Assembly: GCA_025363015.1 (NCBI GenBank)
Contig: JANYEQ010000012.1
Span: 1 to 48,233 of the forward strand
DNA: 48,233 nt
Source of the DNA: Bacteroidota bacterium
Lineage (GTDB): Bacteria; Bacteroidota; Bacteroidia; B-17B0; Aurantibacillaceae
Direction: 5' to 3'
The position numbers and the translations under genes were made by a program. The first letter of the stretch is position 1. Each line of letters begins with the position of its first letter. The notes under the pieces are model-generated. The model searched no databases. It was not told the origin of the DNA and saw only the letters and a program-made list of their open reading frames with translations. Below are positions 21,062-27,703 of this stretch, one piece after another.

Positions 21062-21595
21062 ATGCAATTTGATAAACATATTTTTTTAACAGGTTTTATG
21101 GGCTGTGGTAAAACCACAATTAGTAAACAATTAGCAAATCAATTAAAGTTAGACGTAATTGATTTAGATGCGTTTATAGAACAGTTAGAAGACACCACCA
21201 TACAACAAATTTTTAATACCAAAGGCGAAGCGTATTTTAGAGAATTAGAAACAAATTATTTAAAAAAAATACAACAACTCAAAAATCCTTATGTGGTATC
21301 GTTAGGTGGTGGAACTATTTGTTTTAACGATAATTTACAATGTATAAAACAAAATGGCATTTTGTTGTATATAGATTTACCCTTAAAAAATTTATTTCAA
21401 CGTTTAAATCAACCAAACAACCAGCGCCCATTATTAAATAATTTAAAAGATGATGATTTAAAAAATTTTATTAGCTTAAAATTAGAAGAACGAAAACCTT
21501 TTTATGAACAAGCGCATATCAGGCTAAATGGCTTAAAAATCTCTCCTCACAGTATAGCATTTGAATTAATTGATTTTCAAAAAAAAGATAACTAA
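21062..21595 (+). CDS. aroK: shikimate kinase
   Basis: A 177-residue P-loop kinase that phosphorylates shikimate in the aromatic amino acid pathway. Seen: Walker A GFMGCGKTT at residues 11-19, VIDLDAFIE (shikimate-binding Asp), IFNTKGEAYFRELE, VSLGGGTICF (the GGG substrate loop) and NNQRPLL (lid arginine). Length is normal. The next gene begins inside its 3' end in another frame, overlapping by 26 bases. Other aro genes are not nearby. Confidence 0.95.
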   Translation: MQFDKHIFLTGFMGCGKTTISKQLANQLKLDVIDLDAFIEQLEDTTIQQIFNTKGEAYFRELETNYLKKIQQLKNPYVVSLGGGTICFNDNLQCIKQNGILLYIDLPLKNLFQRLNQPNNQRPLLNNLKDDDLKNFISLKLEERKPFYEQAHIRLNGLKISPHSIAFELIDFQKKDN

Positions 21596-22520
21596 GGTAA
21601 TTGCATTACTACTTTTTTTAAGTACTGCTAAATTAGTAGCACAGCAAGATGCCTTATTTAATAATGAATCTAACACTATAGGCTTTAATATTGGCGCTAA
21701 TTTTGCCGTGGGAAGTCATTTTAAACGCTTAGGTTTAAATTTTAATTTTTATTATGTTTCAAATTTTTTTCAAACAAATTCTGAAATACGAAGCTATATA
21801 AATTTTAAAAATTTAGGGCCTCATAAAATTTATAGCGAACTTGTTTTATCGCAAGGCCTTGTATTTGGTTACGGCACAAAACAAATTATTTACAATCCCT
21901 TTATAAATTCGGTGAGTAACCAAACCTATTATAAAAACGCAATAGCTTACTCCTATAATTATTATTTTAATAGAATAAAAACAAAACAAGTTACAGGTAT
22001 TGCTGCATTTCAATTTAATACAATAACTGTGATTATTGAAAATGATATACTTGCAAAGCCAATGCTAGATAGGTTTAGAACGGGTGCTTTTTTAATTCAA
22101 TACCAATATCAAGATAAATTTGTAGCCGCTATTAATTGTACCATGTGGACAGGGCAAATGGGCAAACAAATGACCTTAGATAATAATAAAATATATTCTA
22201 ATTGTTATATGGATACCACGGGAGGATTATATACCAATTGTTCGCACGGCTTATTAAGTGCCCAATTTAAATACAACATTGGCTTATTACAAAATGTACA
22301 AGCAAATGTTGGAGTAGATGCTGAGCAAGTAAGAAATGCAGTTCAAAATAAGTTTATTCACGATATGAAATTTATCCCAAAAAAATGGAATAAGGCTAAA
22401 AACTGTCACATTCCTATGTTAGACGAAAATAATAATCAATATTTATATAATCAAAATCAAAAAATAAAAAAACCAACACTGTATTGGAATGTATTTAGTA
22501 ATGCCAATTTGTTTTACTAA
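21570..22520 (+). CDS. conserved exported protein, possible polymorphic toxin type 23-like domain
   Basis: A 316-residue protein with a signal peptide (KKKITKVIALLLFLSTAKLVAQQ). The body is rich in aromatic residues and alternating patterns typical of beta strands (GLNFNFYYVSNFFQTN, YKNAIAYSYNYYFNRIKT), with short conserved-looking blocks CTMWTGQMGKQ, SNCYMDTTGG, GVDAEQVRNAVQNKFIHDMKFIP and a C-terminal YWNVFSNANLFY. From memory it resembles proteins labelled polymorphic toxin type 23 in Bacteroidota, but I cannot confirm this. It lacks the long N-terminal repeats of delivered toxins and has no evident immunity gene. The only good start is a TTG at 21570 inside aroK, so translation is probably coupled to aroK. 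Confidence 0.6.
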   Translation: MIFKKKITKVIALLLFLSTAKLVAQQDALFNNESNTIGFNIGANFAVGSHFKRLGLNFNFYYVSNFFQTNSEIRSYINFKNLGPHKIYSELVLSQGLVFGYGTKQIIYNPFINSVSNQTYYKNAIAYSYNYYFNRIKTKQVTGIAAFQFNTITVIIENDILAKPMLDRFRTGAFLIQYQYQDKFVAAINCTMWTGQMGKQMTLDNNKIYSNCYMDTTGGLYTNCSHGLLSAQFKYNIGLLQNVQANVGVDAEQVRNAVQNKFIHDMKFIPKKWNKAKNCHIPMLDENNNQYLYNQNQKIKKPTLYWNVFSNANLFY

Positions 22521-22544: not shown

Positions 22545-23396
22545 TTACTTTGCATAGTCTACCAGCCTAATGCCTTTTGCTATACTATCGCTATAAACAT
22601 AATCGTATAAAATTTCTGTCCATTGTTGTGGTGTGCGATCAGTGTAAAACACACAAGGTTCTATTGGTTTACCAAAATGTATTTTAATAGTGTTACCTTT
22701 TTGTTTAAACATTTCGTCAGGTAAAAAAAGCATTTCAATATTTGCTTTAATGCCAAGGCGTTTACGCCAACGCGCAAAATTGTAAAAAAAATTAGAGTTC
22801 TGTCCTTCTATAAAAACGGGTACTATTGGTTTGTTGTATTTTATAGCTTTGTTTATAAAGCTTTTATTCCATTCTAAATCACGTATGCCGTTATTAAATT
22901 TACGACTTACTAAGCCCGCTGGAAATACTAATATAGCAGCATCAGTAGCATATACTTTTTCTACAACTTGTAAACTATCTCTACTTTTTATATTGCCTAC
23001 TTTATTAACGCCTACAAAAACATCGCCATAATTGGTAATGTTTTTTAAAACATCGTTTACAATAAAACGCACATCGCCTCTTACTTGCCCAATGGCCTCT
23101 ACCAAAGACATGCCATCCATGCCTCCTAATGGATGATTTGACGCTATAATAACACCACCATCTTTTGGTAAATTTTCAATACCAAAACATTCTATTTTTA
23201 CATTAAAAAACTCTAAAACGGAAGTATTAAATTCTAAGCCATGAAACTGCCCCATGTGAAGCATGCCCTTATTTATATCCTCTTCATGTAATATTTTTTT
23301 TAACCAATTTATTAAAAAACGAGGCAAAAATTTATACGTGGTCTTCGTTTTTTCTCGTAAAATTTTATCTACATCTATAAATTTCCCTGTGCTCAT
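22545..23396 (-). CDS. PlsC-like acyltransferase (hemolysin/ornithine-lipid type)
   Basis: A 283-residue membrane-associated acyltransferase. The catalytic motif is NHPLGGMDG, in which His and Asp are separated by five residues rather than the four of classical PlsC; this spacing occurs in the hemolysin-like branch that includes lysine- and ornithine- or glycine-lipid O-acyltransferases. Later blocks are VNKVGNIKSRDSL, ILVFPAGLVSRK (family motif III type) and PIVPVFIEGQNSNFFYNFAR. It could make an amino lipid or a phospholipid. No partner N-acyltransferase gene is adjacent. The ATG is at 23396. Confidence 0.8.
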   Translation of the reverse strand: MSTGKFIDVDKILREKTKTTYKFLPRFLINWLKKILHEEDINKGMLHMGQFHGLEFNTSVLEFFNVKIECFGIENLPKDGGVIIASNHPLGGMDGMSLVEAIGQVRGDVRFIVNDVLKNITNYGDVFVGVNKVGNIKSRDSLQVVEKVYATDAAILVFPAGLVSRKFNNGIRDLEWNKSFINKAIKYNKPIVPVFIEGQNSNFFYNFARWRKRLGIKANIEMLFLPDEMFKQKGNTIKIHFGKPIEPCVFYTDRTPQQWTEILYDYVYSDSIAKGIRLVDYAK

Positions 23397-23585
23397 ATTA
23401 AGGTTGCTAATGTATAACGCTTATTGTTAATATCCTAAATCAATTATTTAATAATTTTTTAACCAAACAATGGTTAATTAGCCATCTACAAAACAATATA
23501 GGCAAAGCTTAAGCCAATATTTATCAAAATTATTATACAAAAAATAATGCATATTAATGCTGTTAATAACTATCAATTTTTCAAC

Positions 23586-23622
23586 AAAGTGGTAAAAAGT
23601 GTATTAAAGTGGTAAAAAGTGG
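23586..23622 (+). promoter_or_regulatory. MraZ operator: four direct repeats of AAAGTGK with 10-base period
   Basis: AAAGTGG, AAAGTGT, AAAGTGG and AAAGTGG start at 23586, 23596, 23606 and 23616, each exactly one helical turn apart. They end 43 bases before the mraZ ATG and cover the -33 region of the likely promoter. MraZ is known to bind arrays of short direct repeats of this kind upstream of dcw operons (AAAGTG-type in Mollicutes, GTGGG-type in Escherichia coli), so the cluster is very likely autoregulated by MraZ. Confidence 0.8.
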
Positions 23623-23634
23623 TAAAATTATACA

Positions 23635-23642
23635 TATTTTTG
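23635..23642 (+). promoter_or_regulatory. -7 promoter element of the dcw cluster
   Basis: TATTTTTG matches TAnnTTTG and lies 22 bases before the mraZ ATG at 23665. The position where a -33 TTTG would lie is occupied by the last MraZ repeats, so this promoter may depend on or be blocked by MraZ. Confidence 0.55.
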
Positions 23643-23664: not shown

Positions 23665-24135
23665 ATGACAAGTTTAATTGGAGAATTCGATTGTAAGGTG
23701 GACGCTAAAGGGCGTTTCATGTTTCCTATCGATTTACGTAAGCAGTTAGAAGCCTTATTTGAAAAAGGGTTTGTTATTAACCGTAATCTTCATCAAAAAT
23801 GTTTGGTGCTTTATCCAATTACTGAATGGGAAAAGTTAAATAAAAAATTAAGCAAATTAAATCGCTTAATAAAAGCTAACGATGTGTTTGTAAGAAAGTT
23901 TACAGGTGGCGCTACAAATGTTGAGGCCGATTCTGCTGGGCGATTATTATTACCAAAATCATTAACCGATTATGCAACAATTACTTCTGATTTAAAAGTG
24001 CTAGGTAGTAATAATGTAATTGAATTGTGGGATAAAAAAGCATACGAAGAATTTTTAACCCAAGATATAAATATTGAAAAATTAGCCGAAGATGTGTTGG
24101 GAGGATTAAATTTTAACGACAGTGACGATGAGTAA
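23665..24135 (+). CDS. mraZ: transcriptional regulator MraZ
   Basis: A 156-residue protein with two AbrB-like SpoVT half-domains: IGEFDCKVDAKGRFMFPIDLRKQL at the N terminus and TNVEADSAGRLLLPKSLTDYA in the second half, each with the DxKGR or DxxGR turn. MraZ forms a ring oligomer that binds direct repeats before its own gene and controls the division and cell-wall cluster. The four-repeat operator upstream fits this exactly. Length is near the family norm. Its last 8 bases overlap the rsmH start, implying coupled translation. Confidence 0.97.
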   Translation: MTSLIGEFDCKVDAKGRFMFPIDLRKQLEALFEKGFVINRNLHQKCLVLYPITEWEKLNKKLSKLNRLIKANDVFVRKFTGGATNVEADSAGRLLLPKSLTDYATITSDLKVLGSNNVIELWDKKAYEEFLTQDINIEKLAEDVLGGLNFNDSDDE

Positions 24136-25033
24136 TTATCATACCTCCGTTCTTTTACAAGCCTGTATTACACATTTAAACATTAACCCTAGCGGTGTAT
24201 ATGTTGATTTAACCTTTGGTGGTGGCGGACACTCTGCCCACATTTTAAAGGTGTTAAACCAAAACGGAAAACTATTTGCTTTTGATCAAGATGTTGATGC
24301 GCATAAAAATAGTTTAAATGATAAGCGTTTCACCTTAATACCACACAACTTTAGATACCTTAAAAATTATTTGCGTTTGTATGGCATTACAAAAGTTGAT
24401 GGTATTTTGGGCGATTTAGGCGTTTCCTCTCATCAGTTTGACGAAGCTGCTCGTGGTTTTTCTATTCGTTTTGATGCGGAGTTAGACATGCGAATGAATC
24501 AACAAAATCTACTTACTGCCAAAAAAATAATTAACGAGTACAATCACAAACAGCTCATTACTATTTTTAAAGAGTTTGCCGAAATTCATAATGCTGTAAA
24601 GTTAGCAACTGTTATTATAGCTTATCGTACCGAAAAAGAAATTGTAACTACTAATGATTTAAAGGAAGCGATTAAAACTTGTACACCAAAATTTGAAGAG
24701 CATAAATATCTTGCTAAAGTTTTTCAAGCCTTACGAATAGAGGTAAACCAAGAGATAGATGCCTTAGTAGAATGTTTAACCCAATGCGTTGAGGTACTAA
24801 ATACAAATGGACGTTTGGTAGTTATTTCTTACCATAGTTTAGAAGATAGATTAGTTAAAAATATAATGAAAACAGGTAATGTAGAAGGTACTGAAGAGAA
24901 AGATATAATTTATGGAACAGTAAAAAAAGTGTTTAAAAATTTAACATCAAAACCAATTACACCAACCGAAGACGAAATAAAAAGTAATACCAGAGCACGT
25001 AGCGCAAAATTAAGAGTAGGGGAAAAAATATAA
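24128..25033 (+). CDS. rsmH: 16S rRNA (cytosine1402-N4)-methyltransferase
   Basis: A 301-residue methyltransferase, formerly MraW, that methylates C1402 of 16S rRNA. Seen: HTSVLLQACITHLNI, the SAM-binding VDLTFGGGGHSAHIL, FAFDQDVDAH, DGILGDLGVSSHQFDEAARGFS, and LVVISYHSLEDRLVKNIM. The end SNTRARSAKLRVGEKI is typical. I start at the ATG at 24128; a GTG two codons earlier is also open. It overlaps mraZ by 8 bases. A 90-base gap with a dispersed repeat separates it from the ftsL-like gene. Confidence 0.97.
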   Translation: MSNYHTSVLLQACITHLNINPSGVYVDLTFGGGGHSAHILKVLNQNGKLFAFDQDVDAHKNSLNDKRFTLIPHNFRYLKNYLRLYGITKVDGILGDLGVSSHQFDEAARGFSIRFDAELDMRMNQQNLLTAKKIINEYNHKQLITIFKEFAEIHNAVKLATVIIAYRTEKEIVTTNDLKEAIKTCTPKFEEHKYLAKVFQALRIEVNQEIDALVECLTQCVEVLNTNGRLVVISYHSLEDRLVKNIMKTGNVEGTEEKDIIYGTVKKVFKNLTSKPITPTEDEIKSNTRARSAKLRVGEKI

Positions 25034-25123: not shown

Positions 25124-25576
25124 GTGGCCAATAAATTTAGAGACATACCAACTAAAACCGAAGTACTGGAGCAAGAGCAAGCTGTGGTAGAGGAAATTGT
25201 GTCTGAAAAAATAAATAAAGAAGTCAAGCCTCGTAAAAAAGGAGTATTAGCAAAAGGCTTGTCTGCTGTATTTAGTGGTACATTTTTAACAAATCAAAAA
25301 ACATTAAAGCATTTGCCGTATGTTTTATTTTTAGGTTGTATTGCTATTCTTTACATAGGCTATAACTATTATGCCGATGATAATTTAAGATTAGAAAATA
25401 AAATAAATAAAGAAATTAAAGACTCTCGGTCAGAATATATTTCTACAAAAAGTGATTTGATGTTTGCAAGTAAACAAAGCGAAGTGGCCAAAGCCACATC
25501 GCAATTGGGTTTAAAAGAACCAGTTGTACCGCCAACAAAAATACAAGTAGACAGTTTAGCATTATATAAAAAATAA
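25124..25576 (+). CDS. ftsL: FtsL-like cell division protein
   Basis: A 150-residue bitopic membrane protein: a charged cytoplasmic N terminus (about 1-64), one transmembrane segment (LPYVLFLGCIAILYIGY, about 66-82) and a short periplasmic coiled-coil-like part (NLRLENKINKEIKDSRSEYIS). The size, topology and position between rsmH and ftsI identify it as the Bacteroidota FtsL equivalent, although sequence similarity between phyla is low. FtsL works with FtsB and FtsQ to activate FtsW-FtsI. The start is a GTG at 25124, with no ATG before the membrane segment. A 6-base gap leads to ftsI. Confidence 0.8.
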   Translation: MANKFRDIPTKTEVLEQEQAVVEEIVSEKINKEVKPRKKGVLAKGLSAVFSGTFLTNQKTLKHLPYVLFLGCIAILYIGYNYYADDNLRLENKINKEIKDSRSEYISTKSDLMFASKQSEVAKATSQLGLKEPVVPPTKIQVDSLALYKK

Positions 25577-25582
25577 TTTTTT

Positions 25583-27703
25583 TTGGAAAATAAAAAAAAC
25601 ATACTCTCTCGTACCTATTTGGTATATGTACTAATGTGCTTATTTGCTCTTGGTATTTTATATCGTATTTGCATTATACAATTTGTACAGGGTAATGAAT
25701 GGCGTGCAAAAGCTGAAGCTTTTACTACTAAAGTATTTGAAATAGAGGCTGTACGCGGTAATATTTTTGATGCGAATGGCGCTTTGTTAGCTACATCATT
25801 ACCCTACTACGAAATAGGAATTGATATTAACGCGCCCAGTATTGACGAAAAATTATACAAATCAAATCGCGATTCTTTGTCTTTTTTACTCAGTAAACTA
25901 TTTCATGATAAAAGTCCTCGCGAATATTTAAAAATTATTAATTCTGCACGCAAAGCTAAAGATCGTTACGTTTTATTAAAACGCAATGTGGCTTATAAAG
26001 ATTTACAAACTCTAAAAACATTTCCAATTTTTAGAAAAGGTAAAAAAGGGGGCTTAGTAACTTTACAAACTAATCGTAGAGAACGACCATTTCAAATGTT
26101 AGCTGGTCGTACAATTGGCATGGCACGTAATGGTATTAAACCTGTGGGTTTAGAGGGGGCATTTGATTCTGTTTTAACAGGTATTAGTGGCAAACGTTTA
26201 ATGCAAAAAATTGCTGGCGATGTGTGGCGCCCCATAAATGATGAAAACGAAGTTGAACCAAAAGATGGTAATGATTTATACACAACTATTGATATTAATA
26301 TCCAAGACGTTGCTCAATCCGCTTTACTAAGAGCGTTAATAAAAAATGATGCATCGCACGGTTGTGCAGTACTAATGGAAGTAAAAACAGGCGCCATAAA
26401 AGCAATTTCAAATTTAACAAAAGCCAAAGGGGATACAGCCGCTTATAACGAAAGTTTAAACTATGCTTTGGGTTATCCAACAGAGCCAGGCTCTACATTT
26501 AAATTAGCATCTATGCTTGCAACCATTGATGAGTATAATATTTCATTAGAAGAAAAAATACAAGTTGGTAATGGTGAGTGTATGTATTACGATCGTAAAA
26601 TGAAAGATGCTCACGCACCAACAGAGCCTGTAATTACTGTTCAACGTGCTTTTGAAACTTCTTCAAATGTTGGTATAAGTAAAACGGTAACTAAATATTT
26701 TTCTAAAAACCCTAAAGCATTTGTAAATAAATTAAATAGCTTTCATTTAAATCAAAAATTAGGCTTATCTATTCCAGGCGAGGGTATTCCTCGCATTAAG
26801 CAGGTAAAAGATAAAGATTGGTATGGTACAACTTTGCCATGGGTAAGTATTGGTTACGAAAGTTTAGTTACGCCACTGCAAACGTTAACGCTATACAATG
26901 CTATTGCAAATAATGGTAAAATGGTAAAACCACATTTTGTTAAAGAGATTAAAAAAAATGGTGTGATTGTAAAACAATTTACTACAGAGGTAATAGATGA
27001 AAAAATTGTAAAGCAAGAAACCGTAAATAAAGCAAAACTATTAATGGAAGGTGTTGTTAAAAACGGCAGTGGCAAAGGATTAAATATTACCGCTTTTAAA
27101 GTAGGGGGTAAAACAGGTACAGCACAAATTGCTAAAGATGGCGATTATAAAAGTGGTGGTACCACATATCAAGCATCTTTTGTAGGTTATTTTCCTGCTG
27201 AAAATCCTTTATATACATGTATTGTAATTATTAATTCGCCAAGCAATGGGGTTTATTATGGCGGTGCAGTTGCTGGACCTGTGTTTAAAGAAATTGCCGA
27301 GAAAGTGTTTTCAAGTAGTGTTGATTTTATTCAGCCTATTAATACTAACAAAACTAATTTATTAACTAAAGCCCCAGATGTTATTACTACAAAATCTAGC
27401 GAATTAAATCAAGTTGCTAAATCGTTTGGTTTAGCTTCTATTAAAGCAGATACGGATAGTTATGTTTTTCGCTCAACTAAAGATTCGAGTAAAATAAATG
27501 TGATAGCAATAAATTTAGAAGGGCAATTAAAAAAAGGTATTATGCCTAACCTATCTGGCTTATCAGCTAAGGATGCCTTATTTCTTTTAGAAAATAATGG
27601 TGTGTATGTAAAACTGCAAGGTTTTGGGTGCGTTAAAAAACAAAGTATTGAGGCTGGACAAAAATTTAATAAAGGAAATAAAATAGTATTAACACTCAGC
27701 TAA
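25583..27703 (+). CDS. ftsI: septal peptidoglycan transpeptidase (PBP3) with PASTA domain
   Basis: A 706-residue class B penicillin-binding protein that crosslinks septal peptidoglycan. An N-terminal anchor (YLVYVLMCLFALGILYRICII) is followed by the pedestal (VRGNIFDANGALLATSLPYYEI) and the transpeptidase domain with catalytic S304-TF-K307, S360-S-N362 and K510-TG-T513. The C terminus carries one PASTA domain (MPNLSGLSAKDALFLLENNGVYVKLQGFG). The start is a TTG at 25583, giving MENKKNILSRTYL; the next in-frame ATG lies inside the membrane helix. A 129-base gap with two repeat copies leads to murE. Confidence 0.96.
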   Translation: MENKKNILSRTYLVYVLMCLFALGILYRICIIQFVQGNEWRAKAEAFTTKVFEIEAVRGNIFDANGALLATSLPYYEIGIDINAPSIDEKLYKSNRDSLSFLLSKLFHDKSPREYLKIINSARKAKDRYVLLKRNVAYKDLQTLKTFPIFRKGKKGGLVTLQTNRRERPFQMLAGRTIGMARNGIKPVGLEGAFDSVLTGISGKRLMQKIAGDVWRPINDENEVEPKDGNDLYTTIDINIQDVAQSALLRALIKNDASHGCAVLMEVKTGAIKAISNLTKAKGDTAAYNESLNYALGYPTEPGSTFKLASMLATIDEYNISLEEKIQVGNGECMYYDRKMKDAHAPTEPVITVQRAFETSSNVGISKTVTKYFSKNPKAFVNKLNSFHLNQKLGLSIPGEGIPRIKQVKDKDWYGTTLPWVSIGYESLVTPLQTLTLYNAIANNGKMVKPHFVKEIKKNGVIVKQFTTEVIDEKIVKQETVNKAKLLMEGVVKNGSGKGLNITAFKVGGKTGTAQIAKDGDYKSGGTTYQASFVGYFPAENPLYTCIVIINSPSNGVYYGGAVAGPVFKEIAEKVFSSSVDFIQPINTNKTNLLTKAPDVITTKSSELNQVAKSFGLASIKADTDSYVFRSTKDSSKINVIAINLEGQLKKGIMPNLSGLSAKDALFLLENNGVYVKLQGFGCVKKQSIEAGQKFNKGNKIVLTLS

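Follow-up and report, generated by a model that had tools for sequence, protein, structure and literature searches.

What controls the head of the dcw cluster in Bacteroidota? The question is raised by the region 5' of mraZ in a stretch of 48,233 nucleotides (GenBank assembly GCA_025363015.1, contig JANYEQ010000012.1, family Aurantibacillaceae), which as a whole we call the window and which is contig 18 of a 3.3-Mb genome. An earlier note on this DNA had drawn attention to a row of repeats there and proposed that MraZ binds them. Here we discuss what is likely to read these repeats, how they stand to the promoter in the window and elsewhere in the phylum, and whether they are the only regulatory site in the region.

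The mraZ locus of the window

The features of the locus are given in Table 1. The genes 3' of mraZ are those for RsmH, an FtsL-like protein and a penicillin-binding protein, and this identifies the locus as the head of a dcw cluster. Two genes upstream of mraZ is an open reading frame (21570-22520, + strand) with the polymorphic-toxin domain Bacterial toxin 23 (PF15528, 98.6 bits).

Table 1. Features of the mraZ region (positions in the window; minus values relative to the inferred transcription start)
Feature	Position	Strand	Basis	Remarks
Acyltransferase gene	22545-23396			divergent; upstream neighbour of mraZ
Upstream partner of second 9-mer	23551-23559			degenerate in the window; forms TTATnAACAnTGTTnATAA in several species of the genus
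Second 9-mer, TGTTAATAA (TTATTAACA on the - strand)	23561-23569	-	genus alignment, palindrome search	inverted
9-mer TTTTCAACA	23578-23586	+		TTWTYMACA, DnaA-box-like; 2 nt 5' of first GTGG
MraZ box 1, AAAGTGG	23586-23592	+	motif scan, conservation	GTGG core 23589-23592
MraZ box 2, AAAGTGT	23596-23602	+		varies more than the other boxes; in the genus often ATGG
MraZ box 3, AAAGTGG	23606-23612	+	genus alignment	GTGG 23609-23612, about -38 to -35
MraZ box 4, AAAGTGG	23616-23622	+	genus alignment	GTGG 23619-23622, about -28 to -25
-7 box TATTTTTG	23635-23642	+		TAnnTTTG type; 12 nt 3' of last GTGG
Inferred transcription start	23647	+	TAnnTTTG set as -12 to -5, F. psychrophilum ruler	
mraZ	23665-24135	+	PF02381, 83.1 bits	fold match to M. 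genitalium MraZ-DNA complexes
rsmH (mraW)	24122-25033	+	PF01795	
FtsL-like gene	25124-25576	+	PF19579	
Penicillin-binding protein gene	25583-27703	+	PF00905, PF03717, PF03793	PASTA domain; FtsI type by position

The first gene of the cluster has the marks of its family, with PF02381 present in two stretches and scoring well above the cut-off of 23 bits. Both D-x-x-x-R motifs are there, and D13, R17, D89 and R93 are invariant in 12 aligned sequences. The predicted model (pLDDT 87) has 16 matches in the PDB with E <= 0.001, all of them MraZ chains, and its best solved matches are the MraZ proteins of M. pneumoniae and M. genitalium. With 9sz7, a cryoEM entry titled as MraZ with a 4 box promoter, the TM-score is 0.80 by query length.

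The intergenic region 5' of mraZ is 268 nt long, with 22% G+C. In it AAAGTGK stands four times at exact 10-base steps, and a TAnnTTTG box and mraZ follow directly, as the earlier note described. The note carried its array on to 23642, which takes in the -7 box, whereas the repeats themselves stop at 23622. Lone AAAGTGK words are unremarkable (28 in the window against 21.04 expected); a pair at exactly 10 bp is expected 0.01 times per window by chance, and a quadruple never arose in 200 first-order Markov windows. In the whole genome to which the window belongs, the exact pattern AAAGTGN4AAAGTG is found at the mraZ array only, in three overlapping places, and with one mismatch at 39 further places against 14 in the reversed control. 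Tandem repeats with a GTG core, in 10-bp steps and 5' of mraZ, are the mark of an MraZ operator, and the window has them.

The pattern GTGGNAAANNGTGGNAAA has 13 matches in 26 genomes of the genus, including one in the genome of the window, and 12 of the 13 are at mraZ, the other being in genome G023 (locus L277). Half of the genomes (13 of 26) have a match to the pattern, and variation of the boxes presumably accounts for the rest. With all matches but one at mraZ, MraZ looks like a local autoregulator in this genus, as far as motif searches can tell, and for the same reason we have dropped the idea of an MraZ regulon beyond mraZ.

With regard to the promoter, TAnnTTTG is placed at -12 to -5 relative to the start in the F. 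psychrophilum data of PMC9723704. By this ruler the start would be at about 23647 and the GTGG cores would begin at about -58, -48, -38 and -28, so that the boxes lie over the -33 position and to either side of it. The TAnnTTTG -7 box of Bacteroidota housekeeping promoters is present, in the form TATTTTTG, in all 25 genus regions, the window included. The -33 element (TTTG or TTG) is absent from the mraZ promoter of the window, there being no TTG that starts on the + strand between 23425 and 23639. The phase and placing of the boxes, taken with their conservation (below), make it very likely that the array is an MraZ operator set over the -33 region.

Conservation of the array

When the regions 5' of mraZ are aligned for the window and 24 other species of the genus, few gaps are needed. 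All 25 have GTGG as box 4; as box 3, 22 have GTGG and 3 have ATGG. Box 1 is degenerate in L025 and lost at the contig end in L004.

For a wider view we took 229 mraZ upstream regions, comprising a genus set of 47, 125 from other Bacteroidia and 57 from the phylum outside the class; one further locus (L147) gave no hit and was dropped. They include 80 named loci, some from the same genomes as others in the set; beyond the nearest named relatives the hits are largely Flavobacteriales. Similarity alone was the ground for counting L161-L182 with the genus set and L183-L240 with the class, so the genus set may include family-mates, and some MAG titles (Klebsiella, Rhizobium) are clearly wrong. Crude k-mer clustering, with regions of less than 90 nt excluded, gave 20 genus-set, 73 class and 54 outside representatives.

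If an array is defined as a chain of at least two GTGG at 10-bp steps, then it is present in 20 of 20 genus-set representatives, in 66 of 73 from other Bacteroidia (missing by this rule in 7) and in 44 of 54 from outside the class. In the class representatives there are 108 cases of two GTGG at a distance of 10, where dinucleotide shuffles give 0.18. Comparison with the mraZ upstream regions of relatives, which the earlier note had put forward as a way to check its proposal, finds the array kept across the genus and in most of the class; a lack of conservation in close relatives, which the note had named as refuting it, is thus not what is seen.

The repeat unit needs some revision. Column information is highest for GTGG, with T-A-A-A-A-A next; the heptamer AAAGTGG is a fair description but splits the linker. 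The period of one unit per helical turn that had been proposed stands, but the core is GTGG with A-rich linkers (TAAAAA) rather than AAAGTGG. As the chain rule itself demands G at the third place, it is the genus alignment that gives an independent view of the boxes.

Position of the array relative to the promoter

Between the last GTGG and TAnnTTT[GAC] there are 10-12 nt in 63 of 86 arrays, made up of 19 of the 20 in the genus set and 44 of the 66 in the class, where shuffled tails give 0.26 and 0.96 respectively. In 6 of the 66 class arrays the gap is 21-22 nt, one helical turn more, and 12 of the 66 have no TAnnTTT[GAC] within 40 nt of the last box; the remaining five of the 86 arrays have gaps of 2 to 9. 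The fixed gap fits the suggestion, made in the earlier note, that MraZ would directly control RNA polymerase at a promoter of non-E. coli type, and we regard that suggestion as supported by the sequence comparisons.

The direction of such control has to be considered. As the array occupies the place of the absent -33 element, a MraZ oligomer at -58 to -25 might recruit RNA polymerase, making MraZ an activator. The lack of any TTG from 23425 to 23639 and the rigid gap after the last box would fit, and a M. gallisepticum study cited in PMC8475190 is said there to have found FtsZ raised on overexpression of MraZ. Nonetheless we think activation quite unlikely and prefer repression, because MraZ is reported to be a repressor in E. 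coli (as cited in PMC8475190 and PMC7761207), because a M. genitalium mraZ mutant is reported to have raised mraW and ftsZ (PMC8475190), and because the boxes reach to -25 and so overlap the space of the polymerase. To judge from F. johnsoniae RNA-seq data in PMC7366714, a missing -33 element in itself says little.

The situation is different outside the class, where TTGAC is found 20-60 nt before the first box in 38 of 45 arrays (the 44 given above becomes 45 with the 200 nt used here). In the class the same word has this position in 4 of 66 arrays, and in the genus set in 0 of 20. Outside the class the array thus appears to lie 3' of the -10 box of an E. coli-like promoter. Given this shift between classes, one MraZ operator seems, on the sequences compared, to serve two promoter types from two positions.

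Family f19 (L077, L078, L079, L081, L082 and L089) has mraZ upstream regions with GTGGnAAAAAGTGTTATTTTGTG, and its 10-bp GTG array seems to span the -7 region itself, a third layout. The 9-mer discussed below is absent before the array in the scorable members, L077, L079 and L081.

A second conserved element beside the array

The A's before box 1, which the earlier note assigned to the MraZ unit, belong also to a second conserved element, TTWTYAACAAA, which that note did not include. In the window its 9-mer, TTTTCAACA, ends 78-79 nt before mraZ. Most of the genus has two additional copies upstream as an inverted pair, of which the window keeps one. In the class, 44 of 66 arrays have TTWTYMACA within the preceding 25 nt, against 0.145 in shuffled sequence, and in 36 of the 66 the gap to the array is 2-3 nt. 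It is missing from that stretch on the same strand in 22 of the 66, and outside the class it is found before none of 48 arrays. The class form is mostly TTATTAACA, TTATCAACA or TTTTCAACA, and rarely TTATCCACA or TTTTCCACA; of the 47 class representatives with a 9-mer, 4 have one of these two. Flavobacterium species other than F. johnsoniae have all three features together, namely the array, the 9-mer and TAnnTTTG.

In family f18 (L069, L071 and L075) the 9-mer before the array is inverted and canonical (TGTGGAAAA, that is TTTTCCACA), with 11 nt from its GTGG to the first box. We also looked at the palindrome TNATNAACANTGTTNATNA as a separate operator, and rejected it. With each place tabulated on both strands it occurs at 8 places in 26 genus genomes against 5 in the reversed control; four of the 8 are at mraZ, three others overlap reading frames and one is intergenic, and among these four no shared target came to light.

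The 9-mer could be nothing more than a part of a plain MraZ autorepressor site, either within the MraZ footprint, as an inverted half-site or a bendable flank, or as an A/T-rich upstream element, with no second protein. It is indeed phased to the boxes, the gap being mostly 2-3 but also 12-13 and 22, and the canonical 9-mer read backwards, TGTGGATAA, resembles a GTGGTAAA box. However the third base is G in boxes 2, 3 and 4 in 25 of 25 genus regions, and reading the common 9-mers backwards yields GTTA or GTTG. The other places at which the 9-mer stands also bear on this.

Where else the 9-mer stands

TTATYMACA pairs were found at 31 places in 16 genomes (14 of them single-contig) against 8 in reversed controls, and these include sites flanked by a fmt-like and an HU gene and others flanked by dnaB and an accA-like gene, where fmt-like and accA-like are labels that we presume from reading the sequences. 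A gene-blind search of 150 relatives for TTATYMACAN{10,11}TTWTYMACA had matches in 111 genomes, at 142 places by table count against 14 in the reversed control. The 130 loci examined have 132 pairs; the 10 places left out are eight in the genus of the window and two in G042.

The largest group by far is before the HU gene, with 82 of the 132 pairs, 69-163 nt off and all in the direction of the gene. Five are before mraZ, at 78-81 nt and all in its direction, in the family of the window, and by the same measure the window's 9-mer next to the array, at 79 nt, is in the same slot. Other targets are nrdB (4), purH (3), mutL (2), nadA (2), parA (1) and recN (1), with 32 pairs unassigned; the pairs near nrdB, mutL, nadA and recN point away from the gene. 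In the case of dnaB, three Flavobacteriaceae pairs are 81 nt before the gene (L291, L295 and L298, with Pfam matches for L291 and L298), and a fourth, in family f18, is 220 nt off (L310). The target genes were identified by Pfam on one or two members for HU, nrdB, parA, mutL, purH and dnaB, and by blastp for the rest; we take recN to be such from an SMC_N match and nadA from the sequence alone. In two species of the window's own genus (L361 and L367) a pair separates mutL from a small divergent gene whose product would begin with a signal-peptide-like stretch.

The genome of the window has a pair 100 nt before its HU gene (L356; PF00216). This promoter (L356:1501-1906, contig 43) has two 9-mers 19 bp apart, then TTGACA, and then TACATTTG 19 nt after the TTG, a near-ideal -33/-7 pair, whereas mraZ has no -33 element.

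The same HU upstream region has no GTGG, and the same 9-mer pairs precede HU, nrdB and dnaB. With the 9-mer standing at HU where there is no GTGG, a MraZ half-site is less likely, and we consider it unlikely that a plain MraZ operator with no second protein accounts for the 9-mer.

The HU-promoter 9-mers found by pattern are TTATTAACA (78), TTATCAACA (68), TTTTCAACA (13), TTATCCACA (2), TTATTCACA (2) and TTTTTCACA (1). A matrix trained on HU sites alone, with mraZ not included, has a site with a score of at least 10 no further than 150 nt from mraZ in 20 of the 20 genus-set representatives, in 52 of the 73 from the class and in 4 of the 54 from outside it, where 1.45, 4.1 and 2.25 are expected; at a threshold of 8 the outside set has 14 of 54 against 6.0 expected. 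In the window at least 15 matches score 10.67 or more, the mraZ site being third, and with so many matches a lone 9-mer means little, so that it is position and company that carry the case.

DnaA as candidate reader of the 9-mer

The first candidate as reader of the 9-mer, and from its sequence and neighbours the most likely, is DnaA. The nrd genes are a classical DnaA target in E. coli, and the DnaA recognition motif is kept in the genus (GGKDHATV). The 9-mer TTTTCAACA is an exact fit to TTWTCAACA, proposed as the Mollicutes DnaA-box consensus in PMC3322544, a paper that itself doubts how well this covers the motif, and TTATCAACA is given as a predicted DnaA box in the oriC of Cyanothece in PMC4674748. 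The window's 9-mer does not fit the E. coli DnaA box TTWTNCACA, having A at position 6. The two 9-mers of the window are inverted, unlike the direct arrangement at 19-20 bp of the HU promoters.

The reader could instead be a replication- or growth-linked factor other than DnaA, a reading which overlaps with the one that we prefer and which we rate as a serious alternative but the lesser prospect. Most of the 9-mer sites differ from TTATCCACA at position 6, and the places include purH and nadA, which are not obvious DnaA targets. In the complete genus genome G001 (4.6 Mb) TTWTCCACA and TTWTCAACA both show no enrichment, with 90 and 256 places against 189 and 294 respectively in reversed controls; no oriC-like cluster is seen for TTWTCCACA or, among the matches listed (about 2.97 of the 4.6 Mb), for TTWTCAACA, and no box cluster was seen in the dnaA neighbourhoods of the genus. 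Against such a factor are the naming of TTWTCAACA as a DnaA box in other bacteria in the two papers cited above, the presence of the DnaA recognition motif in the genus, and the neighbours of the 9-mer, which include HU, nrdB, dnaB and a ParA-type gene.

Clusters of TTATCCACA type, on both strands, are present in family f20 (L299, about 1501-1668, and L300, about 1480-1671) and are possibly replication origins. We considered whether position 6 of the box goes with the DnaA residue that follows D-H (A, S or T), and dropped the idea, the lineages being too few and the picture mixed.

Proposed control of the dcw head

We suggest that the four GTGG boxes, one per helical turn, would serve as operator for MraZ, which the first gene encodes, and that an oligomer of this protein, lying along one face of the helix from about -58 to -25, would block RNA polymerase from its -33 and -7 contacts. 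With the polymerase kept off in this way we infer that MraZ represses its own gene, and with it the genes behind. The 9-mer TTTTCAACA and the one upstream of it (about -86 to -61) would be read by a regulator linked to replication, DnaA being the likeliest, which may also act at the HU, nrdB and dnaB promoters. The upstream position of the 9-mers and the missing -33 TTG suggest that this regulator would activate, or compete with MraZ. That the dcw head is a two-input promoter of this kind, with a MraZ operator and a site for a replication-linked regulator, is in our view reasonably probable on the sequence data.

A broader proposal can be offered more tentatively, as having a little less than an even chance. 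It is that in Bacteroidia the dcw cluster and the genes for HU, ribonucleotide reductase and the replicative helicase (the last at least in Flavobacteriaceae) share a DnaA regulon with TTWTYAACA as its site, that at mraZ the DnaA site has been fused in fixed phase to the MraZ operator, and that the operator, once downstream of the start, took up its place at the -33 region with the change of promoter type in this class. Such a fusion would bring replication initiation and the output of the division genes together at a single promoter.

Comparison with known systems

The literature matches listed include no description of a MraZ operator in Bacteroidota, although Fisunov 2016 may cover it, no DnaA regulon in Bacteroidia and no paper on the 2026 MraZ-DNA structures. 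What we have is very probably a known operator extended to a class with a different promoter, and what is new is its combination with a 9-mer that HU and replication genes share. That 9-mer provides a concrete and testable link between replication and the division operon in Bacteroidia. The difference in place of the operator between classes of one phylum is in effect a natural experiment on how a repressor functions across a change of sigma factor.

DnaA boxes offer one comparison. The 9-mer of the window fits the Mollicutes consensus, and pairs of such 9-mers precede HU, nrdB and dnaB in relatives, but it has A and not C at position 6, in contrast to the E. coli box TTATCCACA. With the Bacteroidota housekeeping promoter (sigma-ABfr; TTTG/TAnnTTTG) the window shares the -7 box TATTTTTG; however it has no TTTG or TTG at the -33 distance, and has MraZ boxes there.

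For MraZ itself, the Mycoplasma operator described in PMC8475190 has the same AAAG­TG[T/G] direct repeats before mraZ, and 9sz7 of M. genitalium, to judge by its title and chains, combines a four-box promoter with the same MraZ fold. The window differs from the Mycoplasma operator in its TAnnTTTG -7 box, its TAAAAA linker and its flanking 9-mer. The B. cenocepacia operator is likewise, in the account of PMC7761207, an array before mraZ of four 7-nt repeats with 3-nt spacers, hence a 10-bp period, and a GTG core. In B. cenocepacia and E. coli, however, that account puts the array downstream of the -10 box and over the start, whereas in the window it is upstream of the -7 box.
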